Part shown: in pieces, positions 18,329 to 60,969 of the stretch
How positions within the stretch are numbered: position 1 is the stretch's first letter
How the letters are laid out: every line of letters starts with the position of its first letter
NCBI GenBank assembly: GCA_030524545.1
Contig: JAUNGM010000006.1
Span: forward strand, 1 to 64,000
Length of the DNA stretch: 64,000 bases
Reading direction: 5' to 3'
Source of the DNA: Eubacteriales bacterium
Lineage (GTDB): Bacteria > Bacillota > Clostridia > Lachnospirales > Lachnospiraceae
Translations under genes and position numbers: made by a program
The notes under the pieces: model-generated
The model's input: only the letters and a program-made list of their open reading frames with translations
Database searches by the model: none
Told to the model about the DNA's origin: nothing

Positions 18329-19666
18329 ATGCTTATTATTGGAAACGGAAGAATGATTACACGGGACGCATCCAACGCCTATATCGAAAACGGAGCAGTT
18401 GCAATGGATGGTAACACCATAGTAATGGTGGGGAAAACAGAAGAAATCAAAAAGGCTTATCCGGATGCTGAGTATGTAGACGCGAAGGGCGGGGTGATCA
18501 TGCCCGCTTTCATTAATGCCCATGAGCACATCTACAGCTCCTTTGCAAGAGGCCTGAGCATCAAAGGCTACAACCCGCAGGGCTTTTTGGATATTCTGGA
18601 CGGCCAGTGGTGGACGATCGACCGTCATCTGACACTGGAACAGACCAAACTCTCCGCATATGCCACCTACATTGATTCTATTAAGAACGGCGTGACAACC
18701 GTATTTGACCACCATGCAAGTTTTGGCCACATTACAGGTTCCTTATTTGCCATTGAGGAAGCAGCCAGAGATCTTGGTGTCCGCACCTGTCTCTGTTACG
18801 AGATCTCCGACCGTGACGGAATGGAGAAATCCAAAGAATCCGTGATGGAGAACGTGAACTTTATCAAACATGCCCTGGAAGATGACAGTGACATGATCGC
18901 CGGAATGATGGGTATGCATGCATCTTTCACTATTTCGGATGAGACCATGGCACTCTGCAATGAACTGAAGCCGGAAGGCGTGGGCTACCATATCCATGTT
19001 GCAGAAGGAATCTATGATCTTCATCAGTGTCTGAAAGAGCACAGCAAACGTATCGTGGACCGTCTCTATGACTGGAACATCCTTGGGCCGAAGACCCTTC
19101 TCGGCCACTGCATCTACATCAACGAACACGAAATGGATCTGATCAAAGACACCGATACCATGGTTGTCCATAACCCGGAATCCAACATGGGCAATGCCTG
19201 CGGATGTCCTCCGACCATGGCACTGGTGCATAAAGGAGTTCTTACAGGACTTGGAACAGACGGCTATACCCACGACATGATGGAATCCTGGAAGGTAGCC
19301 AATATCCTTCACAAACATCACCTCTGTGACCCGAATGCAGCCTGGGGCGAAGTACCGCAGATGCTCTTTGAAGGAAATGCAAAGATTGCCAACCGCTACT
19401 TCAAGAAAGAACTTGGCGTTCTGAAGGAAGGCGCAGCAGCAGATGTGATCGTCATCAAATACGATCCGCTGACCCCGATGCGTGCAGACAATGTGAACGG
19501 ACATCTGTTATTCGGCGTGAACGGCAGTATGGTACAGACGACCGTATGTAACGGCAAAGTCCTGATGAAGGACAGAGAAGTTCTTGTATGCGACGAAGCG
19601 AAGATCATGGCAGACTGCCGTCAGTCCGCAAAAGAACTTGCAGACGATATTAATTTTGGAAAATAA
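18329..19666 (+). CDS. ssnA: SsnA-type amidohydrolase of the purine locus
   Basis: 445 residues of the ATZ/TRZ-like amidohydrolase superfamily. Metal motif His65-Glu66-His67 in INAHEHIYSS, then HIHVAEG, GHCIYINEHE and GLGTDGYTHDMMES with the catalytic aspartate. The long family stretch around MVVHNPESNMGNACG fits SsnA rather than guanine deaminase. SsnA accompanies selenium-dependent molybdenum hydroxylases, and a role in ring opening or deamination during anaerobic purine breakdown is the present model. Start set by AAAGGAGG. ygfK follows 19 bases after the stop; expected cotranscription. Confidence 0.93.
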   Translation: MLIIGNGRMITRDASNAYIENGAVAMDGNTIVMVGKTEEIKKAYPDAEYVDAKGGVIMPAFINAHEHIYSSFARGLSIKGYNPQGFLDILDGQWWTIDRHLTLEQTKLSAYATYIDSIKNGVTTVFDHHASFGHITGSLFAIEEAARDLGVRTCLCYEISDRDGMEKSKESVMENVNFIKHALEDDSDMIAGMMGMHASFTISDETMALCNELKPEGVGYHIHVAEGIYDLHQCLKEHSKRIVDRLYDWNILGPKTLLGHCIYINEHEMDLIKDTDTMVVHNPESNMGNACGCPPTMALVHKGVLTGLGTDGYTHDMMESWKVANILHKHHLCDPNAAWGEVPQMLFEGNAKIANRYFKKELGVLKEGAAADVIVIKYDPLTPMRADNVNGHLLFGVNGSMVQTTVCNGKVLMKDREVLVCDEAKIMADCRQSAKELADDINFGK

Positions 19667-19685
19667 GCAGCAGGAGGAGAAAACT

Positions 19686-22682
19686 ATGAGCGAAAGAATG
19701 ACCTGTATGCCTTTTGGACAGTTGATGGACTGGGTTCTGGCAGAACATGAATCAAAAGGCACCGTATTTGGCGTACACAGACCTTACATAGCAGATACTG
19801 CAAAGAAACTGCAGATTTTTGAGAGAAACCTGGAAACACCCATCGGCCCGGCAGCAGGCCCTAACACCCAGCTTGCACAGAACATTATTGCATCTTATTA
19901 TGCAGGTGCACGTTTCTTTGAACTGAAGACCGTACAGAAGATGGACGGCGATGAGCTTGCGGCATGTATCAACCGTCCCTGTATCCTTGCAGAGGATGAG
20001 TGCTATAACTGCGAGTGGTCTACGGAACTTTACGTTCCGCAGGCAATGGGAGAATATATCAAAGCATGGTTTATCCTTCATGTGATGGCGAGGGAGTTCG
20101 GCCTTGGAGACACGGACGGCTTCCAGTTCAATATTTCCGTAGGATATGACCTTGCCGGAATCAAAGAGCCGAAGATCGACACCTTCATTGACAGCATGAA
20201 GGATGCCAAAGACACCGAAATCTTTAAAGAATGCAGACAGTGGCTGCTGGACAATGCTGATCGATTTGAGAAAGTCACAAAGGAAGATATCGAAGCCATT
20301 CCGTCCGAAATCTGTAACTCCGCAACGATCTCCACTCTGCACGGATGTCCTCCAAATGAGATCGAGAGCATTGCCAATCACTTATTTAAAGAGAAACACC
20401 TGAATACCTTTATTAAATGTAATCCGACTCTTCTGGGCTATGAATTTGCCAGAAAGACCATGGATGAAATGGGCTATGATTATATTGCATTTGGCGATTT
20501 CCACTTCCTGGATGACCTGCAGTACAAGGATGCGGTACCTATGTTCCGGCGGCTTCAGGCACTGGCTGACGAGCTTGGCCTTGCCTTTGGCGTGAAGATC
20601 ACCAATACCTTCCCGGTAGATGTGACCAGGAATGAGCTTCCAAGTGAGGAGATGTACATGTCCGGCAAATCCCTGTTCCCCCTTTCCATTGCCCTGGCAG
20701 CAAGGCTTTCCGGAGAATTTGACGGAAAGCTGCGCATCGCATATTCCGGCGGAGCAGATTACTTTAATATCGACCGTATCGTTGGCTGCGGCGTATGGCC
20801 TGTGACGGTTGCCACCACCATCCTGAAACCGGGCGGCTACCAGAGATTCAGCCAGATGGCAGAGAAACTCATGGCAGACGGCGTGAAAGCCTGGGACGGC
20901 ATTGACGTGGATGCCATCGAAAAACTGGCAGCGGATGCCAGAACCGATAAGCACCATGTGAAAAACATCAAGCCTCTCCCGAAACGCAAGAGTGACAAAG
21001 AAGTACCTCTTCTTGACTGCTTCTTTGCTCCATGTCAGGAAGGATGTCCTATCCATCAGGATATCACAAACTATGTGAAGCTGGCAGGAGAAGGCAGCTA
21101 TGCCGAGGCCCTTCGTGTCATCCTGGAAAAGAATGCACTTCCGTTTATTACAGGAACCCTCTGCGCACATAACTGTATGTATAAATGTACCCGTAACTTC
21201 TATGAGGAATCCGTCAATATCCGCGGCACCAAGCTCCTTGCAGCACAGAACGGCTATGACGAAGTGATCGGTGAGATCAAGGCAGGTACAGGAAACGGCA
21301 AAAAGGTTGCTGTCATCGGCGGCGGCCCGGCAGGTATTGCATCTGCATATTTCCTTGCAAGAGCAGGTGCAGCAGTGACGATCTTTGAAAAAGAGGAGAA
21401 GCTTGGCGGTGTGATCCGTTATGTGATCCCCGGCTTCCGTATTCCGGATGACTCCATTGACAAAGACGTTTCCTTCATCGAAAAGATGGGCGTGGAAATT
21501 AAAACAAATACAGAGATCACCTCTGTTGCTGATGTAAAAGCACAGGGCTATGATGCTGTGATCGTAGCCGTAGGCGCTAATAAACCTGGAACCCTGAAGC
21601 TTAATAAAGGCGAAACAGTCAATGCCCTGAAATTCCTGGCAGACTTCAAGGCAAATGACGGCAAAGTAGACCTCGGAAAGAATGTGGTAGTCATCGGCGG
21701 AGGAAATACTGCAATGGATACCGCACGGGCTGCAAAACGCACCGAGGGTGTGGAGCATGTTTATCTGGTATACCGGAGAACCAAACGCTATATGCCTGCA
21801 GCAGAAGACGAGCTTCTGGAAGTTCTGGAAGAGGGCATTGAGTTTAAAGAACTTCTCGCCCCTGTAAGCCTGGAGGACGGAAAACTGATCTGCAGGAAGA
21901 TGGAGCTTGGTACAATGGATGCTTCCGGCCGTGCCGGCGTAACAGAGACAGATGCGATTGAAGAGGTTCCGGCTGATACGGTGATCGTAGCAGTAGGAGA
22001 AAAGGTTCCGACAGAATTCTATGAGGCAAACGGCATCAACGTGAACGAACGCGGCAAAGCAAAATTAAATGCAGCAACCCTGGAAACAAGCGTGGAAGGT
22101 GTTTACCTTGCGGGCGACGGTGCAAACGGCGCAGCGACCATTGTAGAAGCCATCCGCGACGCACAGACAGTGGCAAAGGCCATCCTGGGCACGGAAATCG
22201 TAAAAGACCAGCCTGCTCCGGGAGAAGAGGGAACCTGTTTTGCAAAGAAAGGAATCCTCGGAGAAAGCAAAGACGCAGCAAAGGAAAGCGACCGCTGCCT
22301 GACCTGCAACAAAGTCTGTGAGAACTGTGTGGATGTCTGCCCGAACCGTGCAAACATCTCCATTAAAGTACCGGGCATGGATATGAACCAGGTGATCCAT
22401 GTAGATTATATGTGCAATGAGTGCGGCAACTGCAAGGTCTTCTGCCCGTACGCAAGTGCACCGTATAAAGATAAATTTACATTATTTGCAACTGAAGCAG
22501 ATATGGAAGACAGCACAAATGACGGTTTTGTCGTACTCAATGCAGAGACGAAAGAATGTAAAGTACGTCTTCTGGGAAATATTACCGATTGCAAAGCGGA
22601 TGATCCTGCAGATAAACTTTATGAAGGCCTTCGCAGACTGATCTGTGCTGTGATAGACAATTATAGTTACCTGATCATGTAA
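19686..22682 (+). CDS. ygfK: YgfK-type iron-sulfur flavoprotein oxidoreductase
   Basis: 998 residues from the ATG at 19686 (AGGAGGAG upstream). N-terminal half (about 1-430) is dihydroorotate-dehydrogenase-like; a cysteine-rich helical link (CFFAPCQEGCPIHQD) leads to a glutamate-synthase small-subunit-like domain with two nucleotide-binding folds (GGGPAGIASAYFLARAGA and GGGNTAMDTARAAKR). The C-terminus has two ferredoxin-type cysteine groups (CLTCNKVCENCVDVCP and CNECGNCKVFCP). The architecture resembles dihydropyrimidine dehydrogenase. It was first named as a putative selenate reductase subunit, but its association with purine catabolism favours an electron transfer or ring reduction role. 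Substrate not proven by sequence. Confidence 0.93.
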   Translation: MSERMTCMPFGQLMDWVLAEHESKGTVFGVHRPYIADTAKKLQIFERNLETPIGPAAGPNTQLAQNIIASYYAGARFFELKTVQKMDGDELAACINRPCILAEDECYNCEWSTELYVPQAMGEYIKAWFILHVMAREFGLGDTDGFQFNISVGYDLAGIKEPKIDTFIDSMKDAKDTEIFKECRQWLLDNADRFEKVTKEDIEAIPSEICNSATISTLHGCPPNEIESIANHLFKEKHLNTFIKCNPTLLGYEFARKTMDEMGYDYIAFGDFHFLDDLQYKDAVPMFRRLQALADELGLAFGVKITNTFPVDVTRNELPSEEMYMSGKSLFPLSIALAARLSGEFDGKLRIAYSGGADYFNIDRIVGCGVWPVTVATTILKPGGYQRFSQMAEKLMADGVKAWDGIDVDAIEKLAADARTDKHHVKNIKPLPKRKSDKEVPLLDCFFAPCQEGCPIHQDITNYVKLAGEGSYAEALRVILEKNALPFITGTLCAHNCMYKCTRNFYEESVNIRGTKLLAAQNGYDEVIGEIKAGTGNGKKVAVIGGGPAGIASAYFLARAGAAVTIFEKEEKLGGVIRYVIPGFRIPDDSIDKDVSFIEKMGVEIKTNTEITSVADVKAQGYDAVIVAVGANKPGTLKLNKGETVNALKFLADFKANDGKVDLGKNVVVIGGGNTAMDTARAAKRTEGVEHVYLVYRRTKRYMPAAEDELLEVLEEGIEFKELLAPVSLEDGKLICRKMELGTMDASGRAGVTETDAIEEVPADTVIVAVGEKVPTEFYEANGINVNERGKAKLNAATLETSVEGVYLAGDGANGAATIVEAIRDAQTVAKAILGTEIVKDQPAPGEEGTCFAKKGILGESKDAAKESDRCLTCNKVCENCVDVCPNRANISIKVPGMDMNQVIHVDYMCNECGNCKVFCPYASAPYKDKFTLFATEADMEDSTNDGFVVLNAETKECKVRLLGNITDCKADDPADKLYEGLRRLICAVIDNYSYLIM

Positions 22683-22826
22683 CAAAGATCTGCAGGAGCA
22701 GTGAATGTGGTATCGTCCGGAAACAGGCGGTATCACGCAGCCTGCACATGATATGACGGAGAAGTTCCCTGCAGTCACCTGTGAAAGATCATTGTTTGAA
22801 CAAACAGGAAGTGAGGCGTGAAATCA

Positions 22827-25409
22827 ATGTACTCCTTTTATGTCAACGGACAAAAAATCTCAACCGAAAAAAAGCAGTCTCTGCTGCGTTTTCTGCGTGA
22901 CGAGCTGCATCTGACCTCCGTTAAGGACGGATGCAGCCAGGGAGCCTGCGGCGCATGCACGGTCATCATCAACGGCGAGACCTGCAAAGCGTGTGTTCCT
23001 ACTACGGACAGACTGGAGGGAAAAGAAATCCTTACGGTAGAAGGCCTGAGTAAGTGGGAATCCAGTGTATTTACCTATGCATACGGTGAGGCAGGGGCTG
23101 TCCAGTGCGGCTTCTGCATTCCGGGCATGGTCATGTGTACCAAGGCTTTGCTTGACAAGAACCCGGATCCCACAGTGGATGAGATTAAATACGCCCTGCG
23201 CAACAATTACTGCCGCTGTACAGGCTATGTAAAGATCATTGCAGCCGTAAAGCTGTCCGCCAAAATCCTTCGGGAAGGCTTTATTCCGGAAAAAAGCGAA
23301 GATGACTGGAAGCTTGGTTCCCGTGTCCACAGGCTGGACGTAGAAGAAAAAGTCTGCGGCACAGGCAAATATCCGGACGATTTTTATCCGGACGGGATGT
23401 GTTATGGTTCCGCTCTGCGAAGCCGTTACCCCAGGGCCAGAGTGCTGTCTATTGATACATCCGCTGCAAAGGCGGTTCCTGGCGTGATCGCAGTGCTGAC
23501 TGCAGAGGATATTCCGGGGCAGAATAAGATCGGCCATCTGAAGCATGACCAGTATACCCTGATTCCCGCAGGCGGACTGACCCACTACCTTGGGGATGCC
23601 ATTGCCCTGGTGGCAGCGGAAGATATGGAGACCGTGGAAAAGGCGAAAAAACTGATCAAAGTGGAATACGAAGTGCTTCCTGCCGTACATAACATGGCGG
23701 AGGCTGCCGCAGAGGATGCCCCTCTTGTATTTGACGAGGAAACATCCAATGTACAGGCACACAAGTATGTGAGCCGGGGAAATGCGCAGGAAGCGATCAA
23801 ACATGCGGCTCATGTGCTTTCCCATCATTTTGAAACTCCCTGGACAGAGCACGCCTTTCTGGAACCGGAGTGTGCGGTGTCCTATATGGATGAGGACGGA
23901 GATGTGATGATCATTTCCACTGACCAGTCCGCTTACTGTACCCTTCATGAGTGCAGCCTGCTTCTGGGAACAGATAAGGTAAAATGTGAAAATGCCCTGG
24001 TGGGCGGCGGTTTTGGGGGCAAAGAGGACATGACGGTACAGCATCATGCCGCACTGATCACGTACTGTACGGGCCGCCCGGTGAAGGTGCGGCTCACAAG
24101 AGCGGAGTCCCTTCTGATTCATCCGAAACGCCATCATTTTGTCATGGACTTCACCATGGGCTGTGATGAGAACGGAAAGATCATGGGGGTAAAAGCAAAG
24201 GTCGCTTCCGATACAGGAGCGTTTGCTTCCCTTGGAGGCCCTGTTCTGGAACGTGCCTGCACTCATGCGGCAGGGCCTTATGCTTATGAGAATTTTGAAA
24301 TCGAAGGGACTGCGTATTATACCAACAATCCTCCGGCAGGGGCGTTCCGCGGCTTTGGCGTGACGCAGACCTGCTTTGCCATAGAGTCTCTGCTGAATAT
24401 GATGGCGGATAAAATCGGTATCACCCCATGGGAAATCCGTATGCGTAATGCCATCCGTCCTGGCGGCATACTGCCCAACGGACAGATCGTGGATGATTCC
24501 ACAGGGCTTGTAGAGACTTTGGAAGCGGTAAAGGAGGATTTTGACGCAGCCATGGCAGCAGGGAAGCCTGTCGGAATTGCCTGCGCCATGAAAAATGCAG
24601 GCGTCGGCGTTGGTATCCCGGACTGGGGGCGGGTGAAGCTGATCGTGGAAGAGGATCATAAGCTGCACATTTATTCCGGGGCTTCCTGTATCGGACAGGG
24701 GCTTGGCACTGTATTGGTTCAGATGGTGGTCTCCAATACGGATCTTGGGCGCGGGGATATTGTTTATGAGCGCAGCAATACCTGGATCGCTCCGGATTCC
24801 GGAACCACCTCCGGTTCCCGCCAGACCCTGGTAACAGGCGAGGCATGCCGCCGTGCCTGTGAAAAGCTGATGGAAGCCAAAAAAGAGGGAATGTCTCTTG
24901 CTGATATGAGTGGCATGGAGTTTTACGGAGAATATCTGGCAAAGACAGACCCTCTCGGGGCAAATGTGCCGAATCCGGTATCTCATGTGGCATACGGCTA
25001 TGCCACACAGATGTGTATTCTTGACCCGAAGACCGGCAAAATCGAAAAAATGGTTGCTGCCCATGATGTGGGCAAGGCCGTGAATCCTCTGTCCTGCGAA
25101 GGCCAGATCGAAGGCGGCGTGGTGATGTCCATGGGATTTGCCCTGAGGGAAAAGTACCCCATTGACGAGAACTGCAAACCTGTCGAAAAATACGGAGCAC
25201 TGGGACTGTTCCGTTCCCATGAGATTCCGGAGATTAAGGCAATTGTCATCGATAAGCCTGGCTTAAATGTTGCCTGCGGTGCCATCGGTATTGGTGAGAT
25301 TACCTCCATTCCCACAGCACCGGCCATCACGGATGCCTATTACCGGCTGGACGGGGAACGTCGCTACAGCCTTCCGATTTCCGGTACGCCATACAATAGA
25401 AAGGGGTGA
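22827..25409 (+). CDS. xdhD: Fused [2Fe-2S]/molybdenum xanthine dehydrogenase, selenium-dependent type
   Basis: 860 residues from the ATG at 22827 (GAAGTGAGG upstream); a GTG at 22818 is possible but too close to that site. Residues 1-160 hold two [2Fe-2S] clusters: Cys36, 41, 44, 56 and Cys94, 97, 129, 131. Residues 165-860 are the molybdopterin-binding large subunit, with GGGFGGKED, AFRGFGVTQ, GSRQTLVTGEA and the catalytic-base position Glu824 in IGEITSIPTAP. There is no FAD domain, as in the XdhD family, so electrons must leave by another carrier, perhaps the polyferredoxin just downstream or YgfK upstream. No in-frame TGA: selenium, if present, would be a labile cofactor ligand. Likely hydroxylates purines such as hypoxanthine or xanthine. 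Confidence 0.92.
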   Translation: MYSFYVNGQKISTEKKQSLLRFLRDELHLTSVKDGCSQGACGACTVIINGETCKACVPTTDRLEGKEILTVEGLSKWESSVFTYAYGEAGAVQCGFCIPGMVMCTKALLDKNPDPTVDEIKYALRNNYCRCTGYVKIIAAVKLSAKILREGFIPEKSEDDWKLGSRVHRLDVEEKVCGTGKYPDDFYPDGMCYGSALRSRYPRARVLSIDTSAAKAVPGVIAVLTAEDIPGQNKIGHLKHDQYTLIPAGGLTHYLGDAIALVAAEDMETVEKAKKLIKVEYEVLPAVHNMAEAAAEDAPLVFDEETSNVQAHKYVSRGNAQEAIKHAAHVLSHHFETPWTEHAFLEPECAVSYMDEDGDVMIISTDQSAYCTLHECSLLLGTDKVKCENALVGGGFGGKEDMTVQHHAALITYCTGRPVKVRLTRAESLLIHPKRHHFVMDFTMGCDENGKIMGVKAKVASDTGAFASLGGPVLERACTHAAGPYAYENFEIEGTAYYTNNPPAGAFRGFGVTQTCFAIESLLNMMADKIGITPWEIRMRNAIRPGGILPNGQIVDDSTGLVETLEAVKEDFDAAMAAGKPVGIACAMKNAGVGVGIPDWGRVKLIVEEDHKLHIYSGASCIGQGLGTVLVQMVVSNTDLGRGDIVYERSNTWIAPDSGTTSGSRQTLVTGEACRRACEKLMEAKKEGMSLADMSGMEFYGEYLAKTDPLGANVPNPVSHVAYGYATQMCILDPKTGKIEKMVAAHDVGKAVNPLSCEGQIEGGVVMSMGFALREKYPIDENCKPVEKYGALGLFRSHEIPEIKAIVIDKPGLNVACGAIGIGEITSIPTAPAITDAYYRLDGERRYSLPISGTPYNRKG

Positions 25410-25413
25410 CCAT

Positions 25414-25902
25414 ATGGCAGCAAAAAAGAAATTTCCATACCGTGCCGCAGTGGTTGCCTGCAATGGCGGCTGCCGTGCAAAGGATGACCCGAAATGTGCC
25501 TATGGCTGCATTTGCTGCGGCAAATGTGTGGAATCCTGCAAGTTCGGGGCGATTTTTATCAATGAGCTCGGAGTGGCAGAAGTAGACGAAGAAAAGTGTA
25601 TTGCCTGCGGCAAATGCGCGAGAGTCTGTCCGCAGAAGGTGATTCATATTCATGAATGTGCCAATTATATTGTAGTGAAATGCTCCAACAAAGAAAAAGG
25701 CAAGGCTGCAAGGGAGGTCTGTTCTGTAAGCTGCATCGGATGCGGAATCTGCGAAAAGACCTGTACTGCGGAAGCGGTTAAGGTGATCGAAAACTGTGCC
25801 GTGATCGACGAAACCGCATGTTTAAGCTGCGGAATGTGTGCAGTAAAATGCCCGCGTCATGTAATCATTGACCAGAGAGGAATTTTGACGGAAAGATATT
25901 AA
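25414..25902 (+). CDS. Polyferredoxin with multiple [4Fe-4S] motifs
   Basis: 162 residues from the ATG at 25414; the frame is open far upstream inside xdhD, but GGGGTGA lies a few bases before this ATG. Ferredoxin motifs: CICCGKCVESC, CIACGKCARVCP, CIGCGICEKTC and CLSCGMCAVKCP, each paired with a preceding or following cysteine group; an additional N-terminal set CNGGC...CAYGC resembles RnfB. Soluble, no membrane helix. It follows xdhD by four bases and is the natural electron acceptor for the FAD-less hydroxylase and for YgfK (inference). Confidence 0.88.
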   Translation: MAAKKKFPYRAAVVACNGGCRAKDDPKCAYGCICCGKCVESCKFGAIFINELGVAEVDEEKCIACGKCARVCPQKVIHIHECANYIVVKCSNKEKGKAAREVCSVSCIGCGICEKTCTAEAVKVIENCAVIDETACLSCGMCAVKCPRHVIIDQRGILTERY

Positions 25903-25948
25903 AAGAGTGACGGATGATACGGAAATCTGTTAAAGAATAGTCAGCAAT

Positions 25949-25988
25949 AGGGGGAGTTATGAATCGTTTATGAATCATAACTCCCCCT
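25949..25988 (+). terminator. Strong hairpin after the ssnA-ferredoxin operon
   Basis: Perfect 14-bp stem (25949-25962 with 25975-25988, AGGGGGAGTTATGA type) with a T-rich stretch about 15 bases further. It ends the first purine operon. Confidence 0.8.
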
Positions 25989-29279: not shown

Positions 29280-29354
29280 ATACCCGATATAATTGTCAGA
29301 TAATTGCAAAAAACAGGCTGATTTGCAAAAAAATGAATAAAGAAGGTGAGACAT

Positions 29355-31628
29355 ATGATTGGAAAGAGTGTTCCAAGAGTAGATGCTTATGATAAGATCA
29401 CCGGCCGTGCCAAATTTACGGACGATCTGATCCTGAATAAGTGTCTCGTAGCGAAGGTATATCATGCCAGGATCGGCAACGGAATTGTGAAATCCATTGA
29501 CACCAGCGAAGCGGAGGCCTTGGACGGCGTAGTAAAAGTAGTTACTTTTCAGGACGTACCGAATCATTGTTACCCTACACCGGGCCATCCCTGGTCTGTG
29601 GAGCCGGCGCACCAGGATGTTGCGGACAGGAATATCCTGACAGGACGCATACGTTATTATGGGGATGATATTGCTGCAGTTGTGGCGGAGGATGAGGTAA
29701 TTGCTTCCAGGGCGTTAAAGCTGATCAAAGTGGAATATGAAGAATATCCGGTAGAAATCCATCCGAGAAAATCCATGTACGGCAGCCCCCATCCCATCCA
29801 TCTGGATAAGAAAGACAATGTACTGGCACGTTCCAATTACCTGATCGGGAATGTAGAGAAGGGTCTGGCGGAAGCGGATACCGTGGTAAAGAGAAGCTAT
29901 AAAACGCCTATTGTCCAGCATTGTCATATTGAAAATCCTATCTCCTATGCCTATATGGAAAAGGGGCGGATCGTCGTGGTGACTTCCACGCAGATTCCCC
30001 ATATCGTGCGGCGGGTGATCGGGCAGGCGTTAGGAATCCCCTGGGGGAAGATACGGGTCATCAAGCCTTATATCGGCGGCGGCTTCGGAAATAAGCAGGA
30101 TGTGCTCTATGAGCCGCTGAACGCATTTTTGACAACACAGGTAGGCGGGCGTATCGTAAAGCTGGATGTGAGCAGGGAGGAAACTTTCTGCAACACCAGA
30201 ACCCGTCATTCCATTGAGTACGATCTGACAGCAGGCGTGGATAAAGAGGGACGGCTGGTTGCCAAGGATATGACGGCGTATTCCAATCAGGGTGCCTATG
30301 CATCCCACGGGCATGCCATTGCCGCCAATGGTCTGACGGCATGGCGTCTGCAGTATGCCTGTCCGAATATCCGCGGGGAGGCATACACCATTTACACCAA
30401 TACACCGGTAGCCGGAGCCATGAGGGCATACGGAATCCCGCAGGCGGCCTTTGCCATAGAATGCTTTATGGAGGATATTGCAGCGGAGATCCATATGGAT
30501 CCTCTGGAATTCAGAAAGAAAAATCTGATTCAGGGATACTATGAGGATGCCTATTTAAAACCGATCGCAGCCAATACCAACGGTATTTTTGAATGCCTGA
30601 AAAAAGGTGCGGAGTATATCGGCTGGGAGGAGAAACGAAAGAAATATGCCCGGCAGGAAGGGTATGTCAGAAGGGGTGTGGGAATGTCCCTGTTTTCCTA
30701 TAAGACGGGTGTATGGCCCATTTCCCTGGAAATTGCCGGTGCACGTATGTCGCTTAACCAGGACGGAAGCATACAGCTTCAGATCGGTGCTACGGAGATC
30801 GGGCAGGGGGCAGATACGGTCTTTTCCCAGATGGCAGCAGAGACGCTTCATATGGATGTGGAGGATGTGCATATCCAGTCCTTCCAGGATACGGATGTGA
30901 CGCCTTTTGATACGGGCGCGTATGCTTCCAGGCAGTCCTTTGTAACAGGTACCGCAGTACGCCAGTGTGCGGAGCTTCTTTACCGGAAGATCCTGGATTA
31001 TGCCCGGACGCTTCTGACGAATGAAAGCAGGGAGCTGTCCCTGGATCATGGCTATATTTATGCAGGAGAAGATCCTGTGATCTCCCTGGAGGAGGTTGCC
31101 ATGGAGAGCTATTACAGCCTGACAAATTCTTCTGCCATTACTGCGGAGGTTTCTACGCAGGTGAAGAAAAATACCATTGCTACAGGCTGCTGTTTCGCAG
31201 AAATCGAAGTGGATATGAAGCTGGGCAAGATCAGGGTACTGGACATTGTCAATGTACACGACAGCGGCAAACTCCTGAACCCGCAGCTTGCCGAGATGCA
31301 GGTACATGGGGGCATGTCCATGGGTATGGGATACGGTTTAAGCGAACAGCTTCTCCTGGATGAAAAGACAGGAAGACCGCTGAACGGAACACTTCTGGAT
31401 TATAAACTGATGACAACTATGGATACACCGGATCTGAAAGCAGAATTTGTGGAAATGGATGACCCTATGGGACCATACGGAAACAAGGCTCTCGGTGAGC
31501 CGCCTGCCATTCCTGGCGCTCCGGCCATCCGAAATGCAGTCCTTCATGCAACGGGAGTGGCATTTTACGAAAATCCGCTGACACCTCAGAGGCTGATCGA
31601 AGGATTCCAAAATGCCGGATTGATTTAG
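29355..31628 (+). CDS. xdhA: Molybdenum hydroxylase large subunit, XdhA-like
   Basis: 757 residues from the ATG at 29355 (GAAGGTGAG upstream; the in-frame GTG at 29346 lies inside that site). Molybdopterin motifs: GGGFGNKQD, GAMRAYGIPQ, ASRQSFVTGTAV, and Glu715 in ALGEPPAIPGAPAI. Forms a three-subunit enzyme with the FAD and [2Fe-2S] genes that follow in the same operon. The next genes, yqeB, yqeC and a MocA-like transferase, mark the selenium-dependent hydroxylase class. Substrate is likely a purine; nicotinate or another heterocycle cannot be excluded. Confidence 0.93.
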   Translation: MIGKSVPRVDAYDKITGRAKFTDDLILNKCLVAKVYHARIGNGIVKSIDTSEAEALDGVVKVVTFQDVPNHCYPTPGHPWSVEPAHQDVADRNILTGRIRYYGDDIAAVVAEDEVIASRALKLIKVEYEEYPVEIHPRKSMYGSPHPIHLDKKDNVLARSNYLIGNVEKGLAEADTVVKRSYKTPIVQHCHIENPISYAYMEKGRIVVVTSTQIPHIVRRVIGQALGIPWGKIRVIKPYIGGGFGNKQDVLYEPLNAFLTTQVGGRIVKLDVSREETFCNTRTRHSIEYDLTAGVDKEGRLVAKDMTAYSNQGAYASHGHAIAANGLTAWRLQYACPNIRGEAYTIYTNTPVAGAMRAYGIPQAAFAIECFMEDIAAEIHMDPLEFRKKNLIQGYYEDAYLKPIAANTNGIFECLKKGAEYIGWEEKRKKYARQEGYVRRGVGMSLFSYKTGVWPISLEIAGARMSLNQDGSIQLQIGATEIGQGADTVFSQMAAETLHMDVEDVHIQSFQDTDVTPFDTGAYASRQSFVTGTAVRQCAELLYRKILDYARTLLTNESRELSLDHGYIYAGEDPVISLEEVAMESYYSLTNSSAITAEVSTQVKKNTIATGCCFAEIEVDMKLGKIRVLDIVNVHDSGKLLNPQLAEMQVHGGMSMGMGYGLSEQLLLDEKTGRPLNGTLLDYKLMTTMDTPDLKAEFVEMDDPMGPYGNKALGEPPAIPGAPAIRNAVLHATGVAFYENPLTPQRLIEGFQNAGLI

Positions 31629-31644
31629 AGGGGAGGACTGTGTC

Positions 31645-46832: not shown

Positions 46833-46848
46833 AATTTTTATCCTCACT

Positions 46849-47148
46849 TTATTTATTGATCGTCATATTCAGTGCGATTTCCGTATCAGCGGTCGGAGAT
46901 GCGATCACTGTGTGATGGACGATCTTTGCCAGTGGCTTGGCTGTTTCCAGGGCCACTTCCATAGCTGCATTCACATCTGAAACCGAACCTCTCATCTTTA
47001 CGCAGGCACCGCTTTTGAGACGGTTTCGTTCTACACTCTGGATTTTTACGTTTGCTGCCTTGGATGCAGCATCAAGGGCTACAAAGCAGGCAACCAGGTT
47101 ATCCAGCTCAAAAACACCGACCGCCATGCCGTCATATTTCTCTGCCAT
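46849..47148 (-). CDS. Bacterial microcompartment shell protein (BMC domain), 1
   Basis: 99 residues from the ATG at 47148 (GGGAGG upstream; the TTG at 47160 overlaps that site). BMC-H pattern: AVGVFELDNLVACFVALDAASKAANVKI, ACVKMRGSVSDVNAAMEVAL, and HHTVIASPTADTEIAL. Resembles hexameric EutM/PduA-type tiles in length and layout. First gene of a two-gene unit with its own promoter, between carbamate kinase and an AEC transporter. No pentameric vertex (EutN/CcmL) or trimeric shell gene is in the window. Confidence 0.88.
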   Translation of the reverse strand: MAEKYDGMAVGVFELDNLVACFVALDAASKAANVKIQSVERNRLKSGACVKMRGSVSDVNAAMEVALETAKPLAKIVHHTVIASPTADTEIALNMTINK

Positions 47149-47164
47149 AGTACCTCCCAATTTG

Positions 47165-47204: not shown

Positions 47205-47233
47205 AGTATACCTTTTTCTGAAGAAAATTACAA
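47205..47233 (-). promoter_or_regulatory. Promoter of the BMC genes
   Basis: Minus strand: TTGTAA (47228-47233), 17-nt spacer, TATACT (47205-47210). Lies between arcC and the first BMC gene. Confidence 0.65.
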
Positions 47234-47290: not shown

Positions 47291-48235
47291 TTATAAATGG
47301 ATTTTTGTACCTGTTTTGCCCTGAATACCGTCTTTTGCTTTTTCCAGAAGGGTGATAAGAGCAGTGCGTCCTGTACCGGAAGCGGCAAAATCGATGGCAG
47401 CCTGAACCTTGGGAAGCATGGAGCCGGCGGCAAATTGTCCTTCTTCCACATATTTTTTTGCTTCGGAGACAGTGAGATCATCCAGCCATGTTTCGTTTTC
47501 CTTGCCGAAGTTGACAGCGACTTTTTCTACTGCTGTGAGAATGATGAGCATATCCGCATCCAGTTCTTTGGCAAGCAGGCAGCTTGCAAAGTCTTTGTCA
47601 ATGACAGCGGAAGCACCCCTTAAATGATCGTTGTCCAAAATAACCGGAATTCCGCCGCCGCCGCAGCAGATGACGATCTTATTGGCATCTACAAGGCTGC
47701 TGATGGCATCCTTCTCTACAATCTCAGCAGGTTTTGGAGATGCGACTACACGCCGGTAGCCGCGGCCTGCGTCTTCCTTCATGATATGCCCGTAAGCCTG
47801 TGACTGATGGTCAGCCTCTTCCTTTGTGAGAAAACGGCCAATAGGTTTGGAGGGATTGGAAAAAGCAGGATCCTCCTCATCTACACGGACCTGGGTAATG
47901 ACGGTGACAACCGGAGTACGCATAAATCCACGCTTGCGAAGCTCCTCCCGAAGCGCATTCTGCAGATCATAGCCGATATAAGCCTGGCTCATGGCAACAC
48001 AAACGGAAAGCGGCGTGTTGGGCTGGTCAGCATCCTCGCGGGAGAGGGCGGCCATGGCATTGTTGATCATGCCTACCTGCGGGCCGTTGCCGTGTACTAC
48101 AACAACCTGGTGGCCCTCTTCGATCAGGTCACAGAGGGCTTTGGCCGTAGTTTTTACTGCGGTCATCTGTTCCGGAAGAGTATTGCCTAACGCATTGCCG
48201 CCTAGGGCAATGACAATTCGTTTTCTTTTATACAA
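47291..48235 (-). CDS. arcC: Carbamate kinase
   Basis: 314 residues, full length. Amino-acid-kinase fold: IVIALGGNALG at the N-terminus, VVVHGNGPQVGMI, CCGGGGIPVI, VIDKDFASCLLAKELDADMLIILTAV, and FAAGSMLPKVQAAIDFA. It makes ATP from carbamoyl phosphate and ADP. No arginine deiminase is nearby; ygeW lies just upstream in the same direction, so carbamoyl phosphate from YgeW is the likely substrate. Start at the ATG at 48235 with AGGAGG upstream. Confidence 0.95.
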   Translation of the reverse strand: MYKRKRIVIALGGNALGNTLPEQMTAVKTTAKALCDLIEEGHQVVVVHGNGPQVGMINNAMAALSREDADQPNTPLSVCVAMSQAYIGYDLQNALREELRKRGFMRTPVVTVITQVRVDEEDPAFSNPSKPIGRFLTKEEADHQSQAYGHIMKEDAGRGYRRVVASPKPAEIVEKDAISSLVDANKIVICCGGGGIPVILDNDHLRGASAVIDKDFASCLLAKELDADMLIILTAVEKVAVNFGKENETWLDDLTVSEAKKYVEEGQFAAGSMLPKVQAAIDFAASGTGRTALITLLEKAKDGIQGKTGTKIHL

Positions 48236-48379: not shown

Positions 48380-49573
48380 TTAGTTGAGGATTCTCGGAGC
48401 AGCCTTTACTTCCAGTTTCTTGAGAATATCCTGCGGATTTTCAAATTTAGAGAGCATGATCATGGCCGCAATGATATATGGTTTGTAGCTTGCTTCTTTA
48501 TACAGCGGAATTCTGTAGCGGTCAAATACGCTTGCGTCTACTTCGCCTGCTTCACAGCTTACGCCTGTGATATCTGCAGGCAGGCAGTGGAGATAGAGAG
48601 CCTTGCCGTCTTTTGTGGTCTTCATCAGTTCTTCCGTGCAAGCCCAGTCTTTGTGCTGTGCATTCTGTGCCAGAAGTTCCTTCTCCAGCTTGTCGATTCC
48701 GTCAAAATCACCTTCGCCGTAAAGATTGGTACGTTTTTCCATAGCAGCAAACGGAGCCCAGCTCTTTGGATAAACGATGTCGGCATCTTTAAATGCTTCT
48801 GCCATGTCGTTGGTCTTGGTAAAGGTACCGCCGGTAGCTTCTGCATTCTTGCGGGCAATTTCTTCTACTTCAGGCATGACATCATAGCCTTCCGGATGAG
48901 CCAGGATAACGTCCATGCCGAAACGTGTCATAAGTCCGATCACACCCTGCGGAACGGAGAGAGGCTTGCCGTAGGAAGGAGAGTAAGCCCAGGTCATTGC
49001 GATCTTTTTGCCTTTTAAGTTTTCCACACCGCCGAATTCATGGATGATATGAAGCATATCAGCCATACACTGGGTCGGATGGTCAACATCGCACTGCAGG
49101 TTCACAAGGGTCGGTCTCTGTTCCAGGATTCCGTCTTTGTTTCCTTCGGTGACAGCGTCCATGAATTCCTTCTGGTATGTATGGCCCTTGCCGATGTACA
49201 TATCATCGCGGATACCGATGACATCTGCCATGAAGGATACCATGTTTGCGGTTTCGCGGACAGTTTCTCCGTGAGCGATCTGGGATTTCTTTTCATCCAG
49301 ATCCTGTACTTCCAGGCCCAGAAGGTTGCAGGCGGAAGCGAAGGAGAAGCGGGTACGGGTAGAGTTGTCACGGAAAATGGAGATGCCAAGTCCGGATTCG
49401 AATACCTTTGTGGAAATATTGTTTTCTCTCATAAAGCGGAGAGCATCCGCTACGGTAAACACAGCTTCCAGTTCTTCATCGGTTTTGTCCCAGGTCCAGA
49501 AGAAATCATTGTTGTACATTTCTTTGAAATTGAGACTGTTTAATTTATCGATATAATCCTGTAAAGTTTTCAT
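48380..49573 (-). CDS. ygeW: YgeW-type carbamoyltransferase
   Basis: 397 residues from the ATG at 49573, preceded by AAGGAG. The frame is open back to 49792, but that extension runs through the 136-bp repeat and is not used. Aspartate/ornithine carbamoyltransferase fold: carbamoyl phosphate motif FRDNSTRTRFSF (Ser71-Thr-Arg-Thr-Arg75), DHPTQCMADM, and HCLPADITG. YgeW is a carbamoyltransferase with an unproven second substrate; in the purine locus it is thought to release carbamoyl phosphate from a ureido intermediate, feeding ArcC. Confidence 0.94.
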   Translation of the reverse strand: MKTLQDYIDKLNSLNFKEMYNNDFFWTWDKTDEELEAVFTVADALRFMRENNISTKVFESGLGISIFRDNSTRTRFSFASACNLLGLEVQDLDEKKSQIAHGETVRETANMVSFMADVIGIRDDMYIGKGHTYQKEFMDAVTEGNKDGILEQRPTLVNLQCDVDHPTQCMADMLHIIHEFGGVENLKGKKIAMTWAYSPSYGKPLSVPQGVIGLMTRFGMDVILAHPEGYDVMPEVEEIARKNAEATGGTFTKTNDMAEAFKDADIVYPKSWAPFAAMEKRTNLYGEGDFDGIDKLEKELLAQNAQHKDWACTEELMKTTKDGKALYLHCLPADITGVSCEAGEVDASVFDRYRIPLYKEASYKPYIIAAMIMLSKFENPQDILKKLEVKAAPRILN

Positions 49574-49746: not shown

Positions 49747-51057
49747 TTATTTGCAGTATGCAGTCGGAAGAGCGGCGTAAACAGCAGCGCATCTTACAAG
49801 ATCGTCTTTCCAGGTCTTTTCATTCGGTGCGTGAGCCTGTGCTTCTGCGCCGGGACCGAAGCCGATGCACGGGATTCCGTTGCGGCCCATGATGGAAACG
49901 CCGTTGGTGGAGAAGGTCCATTTGTCAGTGAGCGGACGGGCCTTTCTCATAGCTTCTGTTTCTGCGTTGCCTAAACGTTCTTCGCCGTAAAGTCCCTTGT
50001 ATGCTTCTTCCAGAGCAGCCGTTACCTTGTGATCCTTCGGAATGACCCAGGTAGGGAAGTAGCACTCGATCGGATATACCAGATTCGTATAGGACGGACG
50101 GGAGTATTCATACATGGAAACCTTTACATCCTCGCCGTATTTCTGAACGGACGGAAGCGCACGGATCTCATCCAGGCAGCTTTCCCATGTTTCGCCTGCA
50201 GTCATGCGGCGGTCCAGGGAAACGGAGCAGGAGTCAGCAACCGCACAGCGGCTTGGGGAGGTAAAGAAGATCTCGGATGTGGTTACGGTACCGCGTCCAA
50301 GGAAGTTTGCTTCCTCCCATTCCGGGTTGTATTTCTGATCCAGCATTTTTACAAGGCCTTTGATCTCGGTTCCTTCTTCCGCATCGTTTTCATTTAATGC
50401 ACGGACATCCTGAAGAATGTCGGCCATTTTATAGATGGCGTTGTCACCGCGTTCCGGAGCGGAGCCGTGGCAGGAAACACCTTTCACATCAATACGGATT
50501 TCCATACGTCCGCGCTGTCCGCGATAGATACCGCCGTCTGTCGGCTCTGTGGAAACGACAAATTCCGGGCGAACCTTATCTTCGTTGATGATATACTGCC
50601 AGCAGAGTCCGTCGCAGTCTTCTTCCTGAACGGTTCCTGTTACCAGAACCTGATATTTGTCATTGAGAAGTCCAAGGTCTTTCATGATCTTTGCACCGTA
50701 AACAGCAGATACGATACCGCCCATCTGGTCGGAGGTTCCGCGGCCGCCGATCTCGGTTTCGGACTCAAAGCCTTCGTATGGATCAAAGTTCCAGTTATTG
50801 ATATTTCCGATACCAACGGTATCAATATGTGCATCGTAACCGATCAGGGTTTCGCCGCTTCCCATGTATCCAAGGATGTTGCCCATCGGATCGATCTCCA
50901 CTTTGTCAAATCCGACTTTTTCCATTTCTTCTTTGATGCGCATGATGTGGCCTTTTTCACCGCAGCTTTCGCCCGGAATCTTTACCAGGTCACGTAAAAA
51001 ACGGGTCATATCAGCTTCGTAATTTTTGGCTGCTTCGTTAATTTTGTTAAAATCCAT
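49747..51057 (-). CDS. ygeY: YgeY-type M20 metallohydrolase
   Basis: 436 residues from the ATG at 51057 (AGGAGGA upstream). M20 peptidase family: metal motif YDAHIDTVG (His77, Asp79), [10 protein letters not shown] with the bridging aspartate, TVQEEDCDG with the catalytic and metal Glu145-Glu146, and [13 protein letters not shown] near the C-terminus. Homologues deacylate amino acid derivatives; YgeY is assigned to hydrolysis of an intermediate leading to 2,3-diaminopropionate in purine breakdown (family model, not shown here). Same strand and order as ygeX and ygeW. Confidence 0.94.
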
Positions 51058-51115: not shown

Positions 51116-52345
51116 TTATTTGCTGAGTGATTCGTCTGTTCCGTAAAGGCCGTCCCAGAGGATCTCGCGGTAGCGTACCGGGTCTGTGTCACCCTCCGTG
51201 GAGATAACGAGAATGTTGGAGTTTTCGTCCAGCTTCAGGGCTTCCTTCAGATCTTTGGCATCCTCATCATGAAGGGCGGTATAGCAGAGACCGAGCGGTA
51301 CGGATCCGGATTCTCCGGAAATGATGTGCGGGTCACCCTCCAGAGGATTGGCGTAGATGCGGGTCGCCTTGGCACTCATCCAGTCCGGACAGGAAGCGAA
51401 TACTGTAACGTGGTTCTTTAAAATATCCCAGCCGATGGTATTTCCTTCTCCGCATGCAAGACCGGCCATAATGGTCTGAAGATCACCGGTGACGTTGACC
51501 AGATCTCCTGTCTTTGCTTCTGCGGAACGATAGAGACAGTCTGCGGCGCTTGCTTCGCATACAACCATGACCGGAGGATTCTCTTTATATTTGTCAGCAA
51601 AATATCCGACAACAGCTCCTGCAAGAGATCCGACACCTGCCTGCACAAATACGTGGGTCGGACGGTCGATGCCGTCTTCCTTTAACTGGTGATCCGCTTC
51701 CATGACCATGGTTCCGTAACCCTGCATGATCCAGGAAGGAATCTCCTCGTAACCGTCCCATGCAGTATCCTGTACAATGATGCCGTGTTCTGTCCGGGCA
51801 GCTTCTGCGGCGGCCATTCTTACACAGTCGTCATAATTGACCTCTTCGATGGTTACTGTGGCGCCTTCTTTGGCAATATTGTCAAAACGGGTCTTCGTGG
51901 TTCCTTTCGGCATACGTACGACTGCTTTCTGGCCCAGGCGCCTGGCTGCCCATGCAACGCCCCGGCCGTGGTTGCCGTCCGTGGCAGTGAAGAAGGTGGC
52001 CTGCCCGAATTCTTCTCTGAGCTGTTCGGAAGAGAGGACATTGTACGGCAGTTCGCTGATGTCACGTCCAAGCTCCTTGGCGATATAACGTCCCATTGCA
52101 TAGGAACCGCCGAGAACCTTAAAAGCATTGAGACCGAATCGGTAGGACTCATCCTTGCAGTAGATATTCTTTACGCCAAGATATTTAGCAAGAGCGGAAA
52201 GATTCTGCAGGGGAGTGACGGTGTACTGAGGGAAACTTTTGTGGAATTCATTTGCCTTTTTTACATTTTCTTCAGACATCAGCCCCAAAAACTTGTCATC
52301 GGATTTTGGGACTTTGTTGACTGTCCATTTTAATCCTTCTGTCAT
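51116..52345 (-). CDS. ygeX: 2,3-diaminopropionate ammonia-lyase
   Basis: 409 residues, PLP fold type II. Schiff-base Lys76 in [12 protein letters not shown], phosphate-binding [28 protein letters not shown], and a C-terminal ISTEGDTDP. The enzyme converts 2,3-diaminopropionate to pyruvate and two ammonia. Known as the final carbon-releasing step of the anaerobic purine/urate pathway. First gene of the minus-strand ygeX-ygeY-ygeW run; the pyruvate could go to the PFOR encoded at 8.7 kb. Confidence 0.95.
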
Positions 52346-52431: not shown

Positions 52432-52570
52432 TAGGAAAATACAAAAATTTTTAGGTTTTTCAAAAAAAATTTAGAGTGTATGCAAGACCGCCTAAATATG
52501 CTAGAATTATGTCGCTTAAAATATTCTAAACTGGATAGTCCATAGGAAAAATGGACGAGAGGAGATTGTT

Positions 52571-58652: not shown

Positions 58653-58679
58653 GAACGTGCGCCTGGCGGCGCACGTTTT
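58653..58679. terminator. Terminator between TPM gene and PAS regulator
   Basis: AACGTGCGCC/GGCGCACGTT stem (58653-58676) followed by TTATTTG. Convergent genes share it. Confidence 0.82.
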
Positions 58680-59313
58680 ATTTGTTGACATCAATATAGC
58701 TATAGAGTGTGTACTTGGAGATGCCGAAATAGCTGGCAACTTTGTCTCCGGATTTTGTGATCAGGAAAGCTCCGGAATCATTCAGAAACTGAATGGCCTT
58801 TACCTTGTCCTCCTTGTTCATCAATGCAACCGGTTTGCCCACAAGTGCAACGGATTCTTCGATGAGATGTGCCAGCAGGTCGTTGACATTGTGTGTGATC
58901 TCTTTGGGCTTTTCCTCTTTGTTTACCGGAGTGATCAGGGAATGCAGGGCACTTTCGATCATGGTAAGCTTGGTGATATCATAATTGATGCCGAAGACAT
59001 AATGCAGGGAACCGTCATCATCATGGATATAGGAAGTGCTGCACTTGAGGATCTTGCCGTCGGAAGTCTTCATCAGGTAGCCGGAGCGGTCCTCAATATC
59101 ATGCTCATTTTTGCTTTCTTTACGGATGACGTCAAATACTGCGTTGGAAGGTCCGTCGCCGATATTCCGGTTGGTGACGTGGCCGTTTTCGATGTACACA
59201 ATGGAATGCTCCGGATCCTGGGTTTTTAAGTCGTGAATGACAACTTCACAGTCAGGTCCGAACTGAGCAGCCAGATCCCGGGCGATCTGTTTTAATACGG
59301 TGAGTCGTCCCAT
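58678..59313 (-). CDS. YheO/DauR-type PAS-HTH transcriptional regulator
   Basis: 211 residues from the ATG at 59313 (AAGGAGGAG upstream). The longer frame to 59466 would begin with an unlikely hydrophobic stretch and no ribosome site. N-terminal PAS_6/YheO domain (LTVLKQIARDLAAQFGPDCEVVIHDL, SIVYIENGHVTNRNIGDGPSN, GRSGYLMKTSDGKILKCS type strands). C-terminal HTH_22 domain (KVKAIQFLNDSGAFLITKSGDKVASYFGISKYTLYSYI). Related regulators bind small nitrogen metabolites. Divergent from hydA, so it is the best candidate to control the purine genes. Confidence 0.88.
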   Translation of the reverse strand: MGRLTVLKQIARDLAAQFGPDCEVVIHDLKTQDPEHSIVYIENGHVTNRNIGDGPSNAVFDVIRKESKNEHDIEDRSGYLMKTSDGKILKCSTSYIHDDDGSLHYVFGINYDITKLTMIESALHSLITPVNKEEKPKEITHNVNDLLAHLIEESVALVGKPVALMNKEDKVKAIQFLNDSGAFLITKSGDKVASYFGISKYTLYSYIDVNK

Positions 59314-59379
59314 GTAAAACTCCTCCTTACATTTGGGGATTTTTTCTTTGTAAAAAATAATGCTGTTACCGATTGTTCC

Positions 59380-59396
59380 GGCACATTTGCTGTGCC
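59380..59396. promoter_or_regulatory. Palindrome in the regulator-hydA divergent region
   Basis: GGCACA (59380-59385), 5-nt spacer, TGTGCC (59391-59396), within the 282-base intergenic region. Possible operator for the YheO-type regulator; no second copy was noticed before other purine genes. Confidence 0.45.
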
Positions 59397-59514
59397 AATA
59401 AAAGGATATCTGATAAGCTATGATAAATATAACATATTTTTTGGGAAAGAAAAAGAACTTTAACAAAAAAAATATGTGTTCCTAAATAAATTTTTGAAAA
59501 ATGGCCTGCGATAG

Positions 59515-59543
59515 TTGAAGTGACAAACATTTGATGATATATT
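59515..59543 (+). promoter_or_regulatory. Promoter of hydA
   Basis: TTGAAG (59515-59520), 17-nt spacer, TATATT (59538-59543), about 53 bases before the ATG at 59596. Confidence 0.6.
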
Positions 59544-59595
59544 GAGTGATAAGAGAAAAGAAATGGTATTCCTGTTTTGGAGGAAAGGAGGAACT

Positions 59596-60969
59596 ATGAA
59601 GTATTTATTGAAAAACGGTACTGTCGTATCCGGTAACAGTGCGGAAAAAAAGGATATCCTCATCGAAGGAGAAAAAATTGCCGGGGTCGGAGTGGATTTG
59701 TCCGCGGCAGATGCCCAGGTGCTGGATATGACGGGAAAGCTGCTGTTCCCCGGCTTTATTGACGCACACACCCATTTTGACCTGGAAGTAGCCAATACGG
59801 TGACAGCTGATGATTTCGAGACCGGTACAAGAGCTGCCATTCTGGGCGGTACGACCATGGTGGTGGATTATGCGTCCCAGGACAAGGGCGGCGGAACATT
59901 AAAAGAAGGCCTTGCCCGCTGGCACAAGAAGGCAGACGGCAAATGTTCCTGTGACTATTCTTTCCATATGTCGATTGTGGAGTGGAATGAAGAAACGGAG
60001 AAGGAAATCCGGGATATGATCGATGAGGGAATCACCAGTTTCAAGCTTTACATGACGTATCCGGCCATGATGGTGGATGACGGAGACTTATATAGAATTA
60101 TTAAGGCATTGAACGATTTCGGCTGTTTTGCGGGAGTTCACTGTGAGAACTCCGGAGTCATAGATGCACTGATCGCAGATGCAAAAGCAGACGGACGTTT
60201 CGGCCCGGAAAACCATCCGCTGGTAAGGCCGGACGATATGGAGGCCGAAGCCGTACACAGGCTGCTGGTCATTGCCGCACAGGCGGACGCGCCGGTGATG
60301 GTGGTACACCTGACCAATAAGAAGGCCTGTCAGGAGATTCAACGGGCAAGGGCAAACGGACAGACCGTATACGCAGAGACCTGCCCGCAGTATCTTCTCC
60401 TGGAGGACAGTGTCTATTCCCGGCCGGATTTTGAGGGAGCTAAATTCGTCTGTGCCCCGCCTATCCGCAAAAAGGAAGACCAGGACTGTCTGTGGGAAGC
60501 CCTTGCAAATGGGGAGATTCAGACTGTGGCCACAGATCAGTGCAGCTTTACACTTGCACAGAAAGCTCTTGGAAAAGACGATTTTACGAAGATTCCGGGA
60601 GGCCTTCCGGGCGTGGAGACAAGGGGAACGCTTCTCTATACCTATGGTGTCCGGGAAGGCAGGATCACCCTGGAGCAGATGTGCCGTCTCCTGAGTGAGA
60701 ATGCGGCAAAGCTTTATGGCTTATATCCCCGCAAAGGAGCGATCCTTCCGGGAAGCGATGCGGATATCGCAGTGATCGACCCGGAGAAAGAAAGTGTCAT
60801 ATCTGCGAAGACCCATGCTTATCATACGGATAATAATCCTTTTGAGGGATTTGCCATCCGCGGATGTATTGACCAGGTATTTTTGCGGGGTAATCTGGCA
60901 GTTGACGGCGGGAAACTTGTGAAGGAGAAGCTGGGCAAATATATTTACCGTGGAAAAAAACAGATGTAA
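59596..60969 (+). CDS. hydA: Dihydropyrimidinase-type amidohydrolase of the purine locus
   Basis: 457 residues from the ATG at 59596 (AAAGGAGGAAC upstream). Cyclic amidohydrolase: metal motif FIDAHTHFD (His58, His60), carboxylated-lysine motif SFKLYMTYP (Lys150), VHCENSGVI, AETCPQYLLL, and catalytic Asp314 in ATDQCS. Opens hydantoin/dihydropyrimidine-like rings. Equivalent to E. coli hyuA/ygeZ, which lies with ssnA and ygeW-X-Y. In purine breakdown it would act on the reduced imidazole or pyrimidine ring (model). Monocistronic, divergent from its likely regulator. Confidence 0.93.
   Translation: MKYLLKNGTVVSGNSAEKKDILIEGEKIAGVGVDLSAADAQVLDMTGKLLFPGFIDAHTHFDLEVANTVTADDFETGTRAAILGGTTMVVDYASQDKGGGTLKEGLARWHKKADGKCSCDYSFHMSIVEWNEETEKEIRDMIDEGITSFKLYMTYPAMMVDDGDLYRIIKALNDFGCFAGVHCENSGVIDALIADAKADGRFGPENHPLVRPDDMEAEAVHRLLVIAAQADAPVMVVHLTNKKACQEIQRARANGQTVYAETCPQYLLLEDSVYSRPDFEGAKFVCAPPIRKKEDQDCLWEALANGEIQTVATDQCSFTLAQKALGKDDFTKIPGGLPGVETRGTLLYTYGVREGRITLEQMCRLLSENAAKLYGLYPRKGAILPGSDADIAVIDPEKESVISAKTHAYHTDNNPFEGFAIRGCIDQVFLRGNLAVDGGKLVKEKLGKYIYRGKKQM

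Follow-up and report, generated by a model that had tools for sequence, protein, structure and literature searches.

We find that the analysed locus very probably encodes the anaerobic reductive urate pathway, arranged as several transcription units of which the ssnA and ygeX groups would be co-regulated, with a pair of microcompartment shell genes that would stand outside the pathway as a satellite of a PDU-type compartment. The window, that is, the whole stretch of DNA analysed, comprises the first 64 kb of a contig of 159,990 bases (C29) in a genome of 4.34 Mb and 76 contigs. Judged by named relatives, the host probably belongs to Blautia, which provides the closest named relatives by YgeW in a comparison from which the window's own genome is possibly absent. 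The result is sound but expected: the pathway has been described before, this genome is a further carrier, and the layout is typical of the genus. For anaerobic urate breakdown in this common gut genus, it provides a clear genomic example.

Profile searches bore out the purine gene list of the original prediction: ssnA, ygfK, ygeW, ygeX, ygeY, arcC, hydA, yqeB and yqeC all scored over the curated NCBIfam cut-offs. From profile scores alone, the clustering of so many families of one pathway is far beyond chance. No Rfam families and no tRNA were detected in the 64-kb window. The redox arm occupies positions 18329-35120 of the plus strand, where it had been placed, and starts with ssnA (18329..19666; NF005540, 672 bits, and TIGR03314, 604 bits, over cut-off), encoding the aminohydrolase that opens the reduced purine. 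It is followed by ygfK (19686..22682; TIGR03315, 1378 bits), encoding a flavin/iron-sulfur reductase, whose start was set from the profile start, the mechanical ORF starting at 19584. The two molybdenum hydroxylases of the original prediction were recovered as a fused selenium-type xanthine dehydrogenase with Fe-S and Mo domains (22818..25409; TIGR03311, 1197 bits), which is likely the urate reductase, and a three-subunit xanthine dehydrogenase encoded by xdhA, xdhB and xdhC (29346..33011; NF043082, NF043083 and NF043084, over cut-off). An ABC-2 type exporter, consisting of an ATPase, an unassigned 264-aa protein and a permease, interrupts the arm at 26469-29065. In several relatives, the dehydrogenase-ferredoxin genes and xdhA are much closer together than in the window with its ABC exporter.

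The arm ends at 32939..35120 with yqeB, yqeC and a MocA-like nucleotidyltransferase gene, a group for selenium/molybdenum cofactor maturation. The first two exceed the cut-offs of TIGR03309 and TIGR03172; the MocA-like assignment held at the level of a Pfam MobA-like NTP transferase match, but the score with TIGR03310 was 122 bits, under the cut-off of 186. In addition to yqeB and yqeC at the locus, selD, which is required for selenium activation, is present elsewhere in the genome, on contig C2 (TIGR00476, 405 bits in a profile search of the genome), which is the gene complement of a selenium-dependent molybdenum hydroxylase. These genes were earlier grouped with such hydroxylases by Haft and Self (PMC2276186), and the loci described in the available text of that study have yqeB, yqeC, a MocA/YgfJ-like gene, xdh, ygeW/X/Y, ssnA, ygfK and a genomic selD in common with ours. 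Those loci are mostly single and extended, whereas here the genes extend over 43 kb and are interspersed with unrelated ones.

Behind the fused dehydrogenase, a plus-strand gene at 25267..25902 encodes a ferredoxin-like protein with four CxxCxxCx(2-4)C motifs that matches RnfB-type ferredoxin profiles. The available text of PMC12990295 treats the physiological electron donor of the first enzyme as an open question. The four-cluster ferredoxin is a possible electron carrier or donor for the preceding selenium-type dehydrogenase, and as such may feed the first enzyme of the urate route. A search of relatives returned 41 matches; exclusion of 15 that were partial and 1 that was cut left 25 judged loci. 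The ferredoxin gene lies directly 3' of the selenium-type dehydrogenase in 14 of them (about 11 of 21 distinct loci, four of the 25 being duplicate contigs) and is absent from the judgeable loci of other genera. We therefore rejected the idea that it is a universal partner of this dehydrogenase.

The cleavage arm had been placed at 46.5-52.3 kb of the minus strand. Its four enzyme genes indeed lie there, at 47291-52345, but the part at 46.5-47.2 kb consists of two BMC-domain shell genes beside arcC, overlooked in the original prediction. The enzyme genes are ygeX (51116..52345; diaminopropionate ammonia-lyase; TIGR03528, 612 bits), ygeY (49747..51057; M20-family ureido hydrolase; TIGR03526, 683 bits), ygeW (48380..49573; carbamoyltransferase; TIGR03316, 802 bits) and arcC (47291..48235; carbamate kinase; TIGR00746, 394 bits). 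The starts of ygeY and ygeW were adjusted from mechanical ORFs extending to 51192 and 49792, in which the profiles start at residues 48 (YgeY) and 78 (YgeW), right after Met 46 and Met 74, respectively. The N-terminal extensions were also considered as targeting peptides and rejected, as they represent read-through of upstream sequence. The shell genes, BMCa (46849..47160; PF00936, 60.5 bits) and BMCb (46542..46847; PF00936, 66.1 bits), are on the same minus strand and were judged to lie outside the pathway.

A dispersed hairpin-rich repeat, built of ATGCAAGCAT palindromes followed by GGCTCGTTGCTCGC, occurs in the window at 49602-49721 (minus strand) and 5170-5257 (plus strand), with one copy in L023. 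Compared with its shuffles, the copy lying between ygeY and ygeW has a far more stable fold (z -7.05), and the core of the repeat was not found in the 80 ygeW loci of relatives.

As proposed, hydA stands apart at 59.6 kb with a regulator gene of its own. It encodes a hydantoinase/dihydropyrimidinase (59596..60969, plus strand; TIGR02033, 576 bits; start adjusted within ORF 59542-60969) and is divergent from a gene for a YheO-like PAS (PAS_6)/HTH_22 regulator (58678..59466, minus strand; PF08348, PF13309). Genes for the use of pyruvate are likewise present in the window: pyruvate:ferredoxin oxidoreductase (PFOR; 8661..12200, plus strand; Pfam POR domains) is a possible pyruvate sink, and a PduL-type phosphotransacylase homologue is encoded at approximately 1716-2354 on the minus strand (145 bits against the genome's other phosphotransacylase, PTAC). 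The arms are separated by genes for a ZupT-like protein (under cut-off), a P-type ATPase, ArsR, CmpB, MnmA, aldehyde and Fe-alcohol dehydrogenases, a DNA-alkylation-repair homologue and a Mem_trans carrier. An ORF at 44594-45325 of the minus strand was dropped as a gene because it overlaps the plus-strand DNA-alkylation-repair homologue.

Gene by gene, this enzyme set matches the urate-to-pyruvate set described in the available texts of PMC12507026 and PMC12990295, which supports the proposed reading as purine/urate degradation. In that route, urate is reduced to yanthine, which is dearomatised; both rings are opened, both ureido groups are stripped and pyruvate is released. Orthologues of SsnA, YgfK, the hydantoinase, YgeW, YgeY and YgeX are present over curated cut-offs, and the xanthine-dehydrogenase homologue is found both as the TIGR03311 protein and as XdhABC. 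Since the orthology is strong, the assignment stands as a firm prediction for this organism. The loci of E. coli, C. difficile and C. sporogenes, as presented in the same sources, share with ours SsnA, YgfK, a HyuA-type hydantoinase, YgeW, YgeY, carbamate kinase, YgeX and a xanthine-dehydrogenase homologue. Two features set our locus apart: its genes lie in separate groups, and its first enzyme is of the fused selenium type, encoded next to a ferredoxin, instead of XdhD-YgfM.

By orthology with steps demonstrated in other species, the molybdenum hydroxylase, probably selenium-loaded, would convert urate to yanthine with electrons that the four-cluster ferredoxin may supply. YgfK would then dearomatise yanthine, SsnA would open the first ring and HydA the hydantoin, YgeW and YgeY would take off the two ureido groups, and YgeX would release pyruvate and ammonia. 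ArcC could make ATP from carbamoyl phosphate, PFOR could take the pyruvate on, and XdhABC may feed in hypoxanthine or xanthine. Older names suggest instead a gene set for another heterocycle or for selenate reduction, and YgfK is still labelled a putative selenate reductase subunit in NCBIfam; we regard this as very improbable, given that this set of enzymes, from other species, was reconstituted in vitro with urate as substrate (PMC12507026), and that its members score highly here. We also give little credence to a locus that has decayed or is incomplete and serves purine salvage alone, without a complete urate route in the strain: the frames match their profiles across nearly full length and selD is present, even if the scattered arms, the ABC exporter within the redox arm and the hairpin repeat between ygeY and ygeW could be taken as marks of decay.

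The claim that these genes do not form one operon held, and a comparison of gene order with relatives revealed the split layout as usual in the genus. Among the 80 ygeW loci compared, 49 were at least 20 kb long; ssnA, ygfK and ygeXYW occur together in 31 of these 49, joined by hydA in 4. BMCa is present in 8 of the 49 and never in the same locus as ssnA (0/49). In most Blautia-like loci, xdhABC-yqeBC lies close to ygeXYW-arcC, and ssnA and ygfK fall outside the flanking stretch; the window's layout thus follows the genus pattern. The gap between the arms is wider in the window than in most of the 37 genus regions compared.

Motif search on ssnA upstream regions recovered a palindrome close to CCTAAAAATTTTTAGG. 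In the window, candidate operators lie upstream of ygeX (52440..52455, minus strand; 3 mismatches) and of ssnA (18186..18201, plus strand; 4 mismatches, weak by itself), and the best match upstream of hydA has 5 mismatches. With one match against 0.54 expected by chance, the ygeX site is not significant within the window alone, and its support therefore comes from its presence in relatives. There, a palindrome with at most 3 mismatches precedes ygeX in 14 of 20 distinct regions from a Blautia-like set compiled by hand (shuffles 1.5%) and in 19 of 72 regions overall (shuffles 1.1%), and precedes ssnA in 23 of 47 (shuffles 0.9%), all of these counts coming from related, not independent, species. 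At the same threshold, it was found upstream of the selenium-type dehydrogenase in 1 of 21 regions and upstream of hydA (0/31), xdhA (0/28), ygfK (0/45), arcC (0/84) and ygeW (0/85) in none. Motif searches on the ygeX and hydA upstream sets returned other motifs, not the ssnA palindrome. The palindrome, found before both ygeX and ssnA in relatives and lacking at hydA, suggests common control of the two arms via one regulator, with hydA seemingly under separate control. The genes would form several transcription units, and the palindromic site may tie the separate ssnA and ygeX groups, probably under one regulator, into one regulon.

Among orthologues, one Cys of BMCa is nearly invariant, and BMCb retains a Pro-Pro-Cys and, close to its presumed pore, a Gly-Gly-His motif. 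The genome contains 14 BMC-domain matches over five contigs. Its single BMC-P (PF03319) is encoded on C33, where its locus also comprises BMC-domain genes, a diol dehydratase and its reactivase, a class II aldolase, an aldehyde dehydrogenase, PTAC and a glycyl-radical enzyme; PduB is apart, on C40. BMC genes occur on C29, C30, C33 and C40, a scattered distribution across the genome, and the pair in the window, two contiguous PF00936 genes without PF03319 beside a complete BMC locus elsewhere (C33), has the configuration of a satellite. We consider it most likely a satellite of the genome's PDU-type compartment, a link that comes from co-occurrence only and by which the products of the pair may enter the PDU-type shell. 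A comparison, by eye only, of the upstream regions of the shell pair and the pdu genes did not establish a common promoter.

The co-occurrence with BMC-P on which the satellite reading is based was seen at two levels, with shared ancestry ignored in all p values. In a family sample of 397 genomes, BMCa matched at 1e-16 in 19 further genomes outside the genus. One of these, G173, was dropped as a paralogue, as its match lies within a pdu-type locus, which left 18 genomes with the shell pair, from 16 other genera and with differing gene neighbourhoods (orthologues L191-L208). BMC-P is present in 20/20 family pair carriers versus 97/377 others (p = 7e-12), including all 18 other-genus carriers, each with BMC-P beside PTAC and PduS; in two of the 18, the pair itself lies beside PduB. 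Within the genus, 33 of 37 pair carriers have BMC-P versus 14 of 27 other genomes (p = 0.0013), the four carriers without it being drafts of 84-93% completeness.

The position of the pair, 3' of arcC and on the same strand, also raises the question of a purine microcompartment, in which it would enclose YgeX, YgeY, YgeW and ArcC, for example holding 2-aminoacrylate or carbamoyl phosphate. We assigned this a very low probability, and testing it on relatives left it unlikely. Among 64 genus genomes, BMCa was counted in 37 (at least 84 bits, with matches near 50 bits dropped as presumed pdu-locus paralogues) and ygeW in 37 (36 over cut-off plus G054, where it is in two pieces). Both occur in 26, the pair only in 11, ygeW only in 11 and neither in 16, so that the two are associated (p = 0.023); the association is gone, however, among the 38 genomes that are at least 90% complete (p = 0.51), and 11 of the 37 carriers of either lack the other. 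The family sample gave a similar picture: ygeW is present in 9/20 pair carriers versus 55/377 others (p = 0.0017), but among BMC-P carriers the difference is reduced to 9/20 with the pair versus 26/97 without it (p = 0.12), shared ancestry being ignored in both tests.

Neighbourhoods were compared in 37 regions that came from 36 further genomes of the genus. BMCa and BMCb are adjacent in all but one of them (36 of 37), the exception being L170, where the contig ends. In 15 of the 37, arcC lies in the same stretch as the pair, as the enclosing role would have it, but on the same strand in only 9 and on the other strand in 6, and in 7 of the 9 same-strand regions an opposite-strand MATE gene stands between arcC and the pair. 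Seven genomes without ygeW still have the pair in a stretch with mocA/yqeB or DUF1015 (L135, L136, L151-L154, L166), and in the single-contig genome G062 the pair and ygeW are 630 kb apart. Outside the genus, the pair and ygeW share a contig in G078 and G402, approximately 55-59 kb apart, and 8 of the 18 carriers have ygeW somewhere in the genome; no purine genes were found near the pair in any of the 18, in stretches of 4.9-19 kb, several of which end at contig ends. A MATE-family transporter gene often neighbours the shell pair in the genus (L135-L171, e.g., L144 9386-10759) and is absent from the window.

Regulation and protein structure also argue against enclosure of the purine enzymes. 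BMCa lacks the purine palindrome upstream in all 37 regions, and the pair is preceded by its own promoter-like site, TTGTAA-17-TATACT (47205..47233, minus strand), whose 9-mer AGGTATACT recurs upstream of BMCa in 15 of the 37 genus regions. No BMC-P was found in the window, and YgeX, YgeY, YgeW and ArcC extend beyond their profiles by about 10 residues at most. The usual targeting peptide is larger than this, which leaves no room for one on these four proteins. A literature search that did not extend to supplementary files with locus diagrams of BMC catalogues found no microcompartment linked to diaminopropionate ammonia-lyase, and the word microcompartment was absent among the matches listed for uric acid or purine degradation. 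It is scarcely probable, too, that the PDU-type compartment has a second role in which the conserved pair provides a shell where the urate cleavage enzymes dock; if true, this would account for many Blautia keeping the shell pair between two purine arms. Shell genes adjoining a pathway are no proof of a microcompartment for that pathway.

The XAU/BUF1 xanthine microcompartment (PMC6620236) resembles our locus in having shell genes near purine genes. XAU, as described in the main text of that study, comprises ring hydrolases, a decarboxylase and a formimidoyltransferase, and that text does not name ygeW, carbamate kinase or diaminopropionate. Its purine locus is characterised by a complete shell (PF00936 with PF03319), whereas PF03319 has no match on C29. 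Closer to the PDU-type satellite reading are the satellite BMC loci of PMC4207490 and PMC8217296, which, in the available texts, are likewise contiguous shell genes of a single class, distant from the complete main locus that the same genome carries. The pair was not found by name in those texts and differs from the loci described there in that its two genes form a conserved unit, flanked by purine genes in many Blautia. A second small satellite is present in the same genome on contig C30 (L021, 7008-9606), where two BMC-domain genes are accompanied by an EutP/PduV-like gene, just under cut-off, and a cation diffusion facilitator gene.
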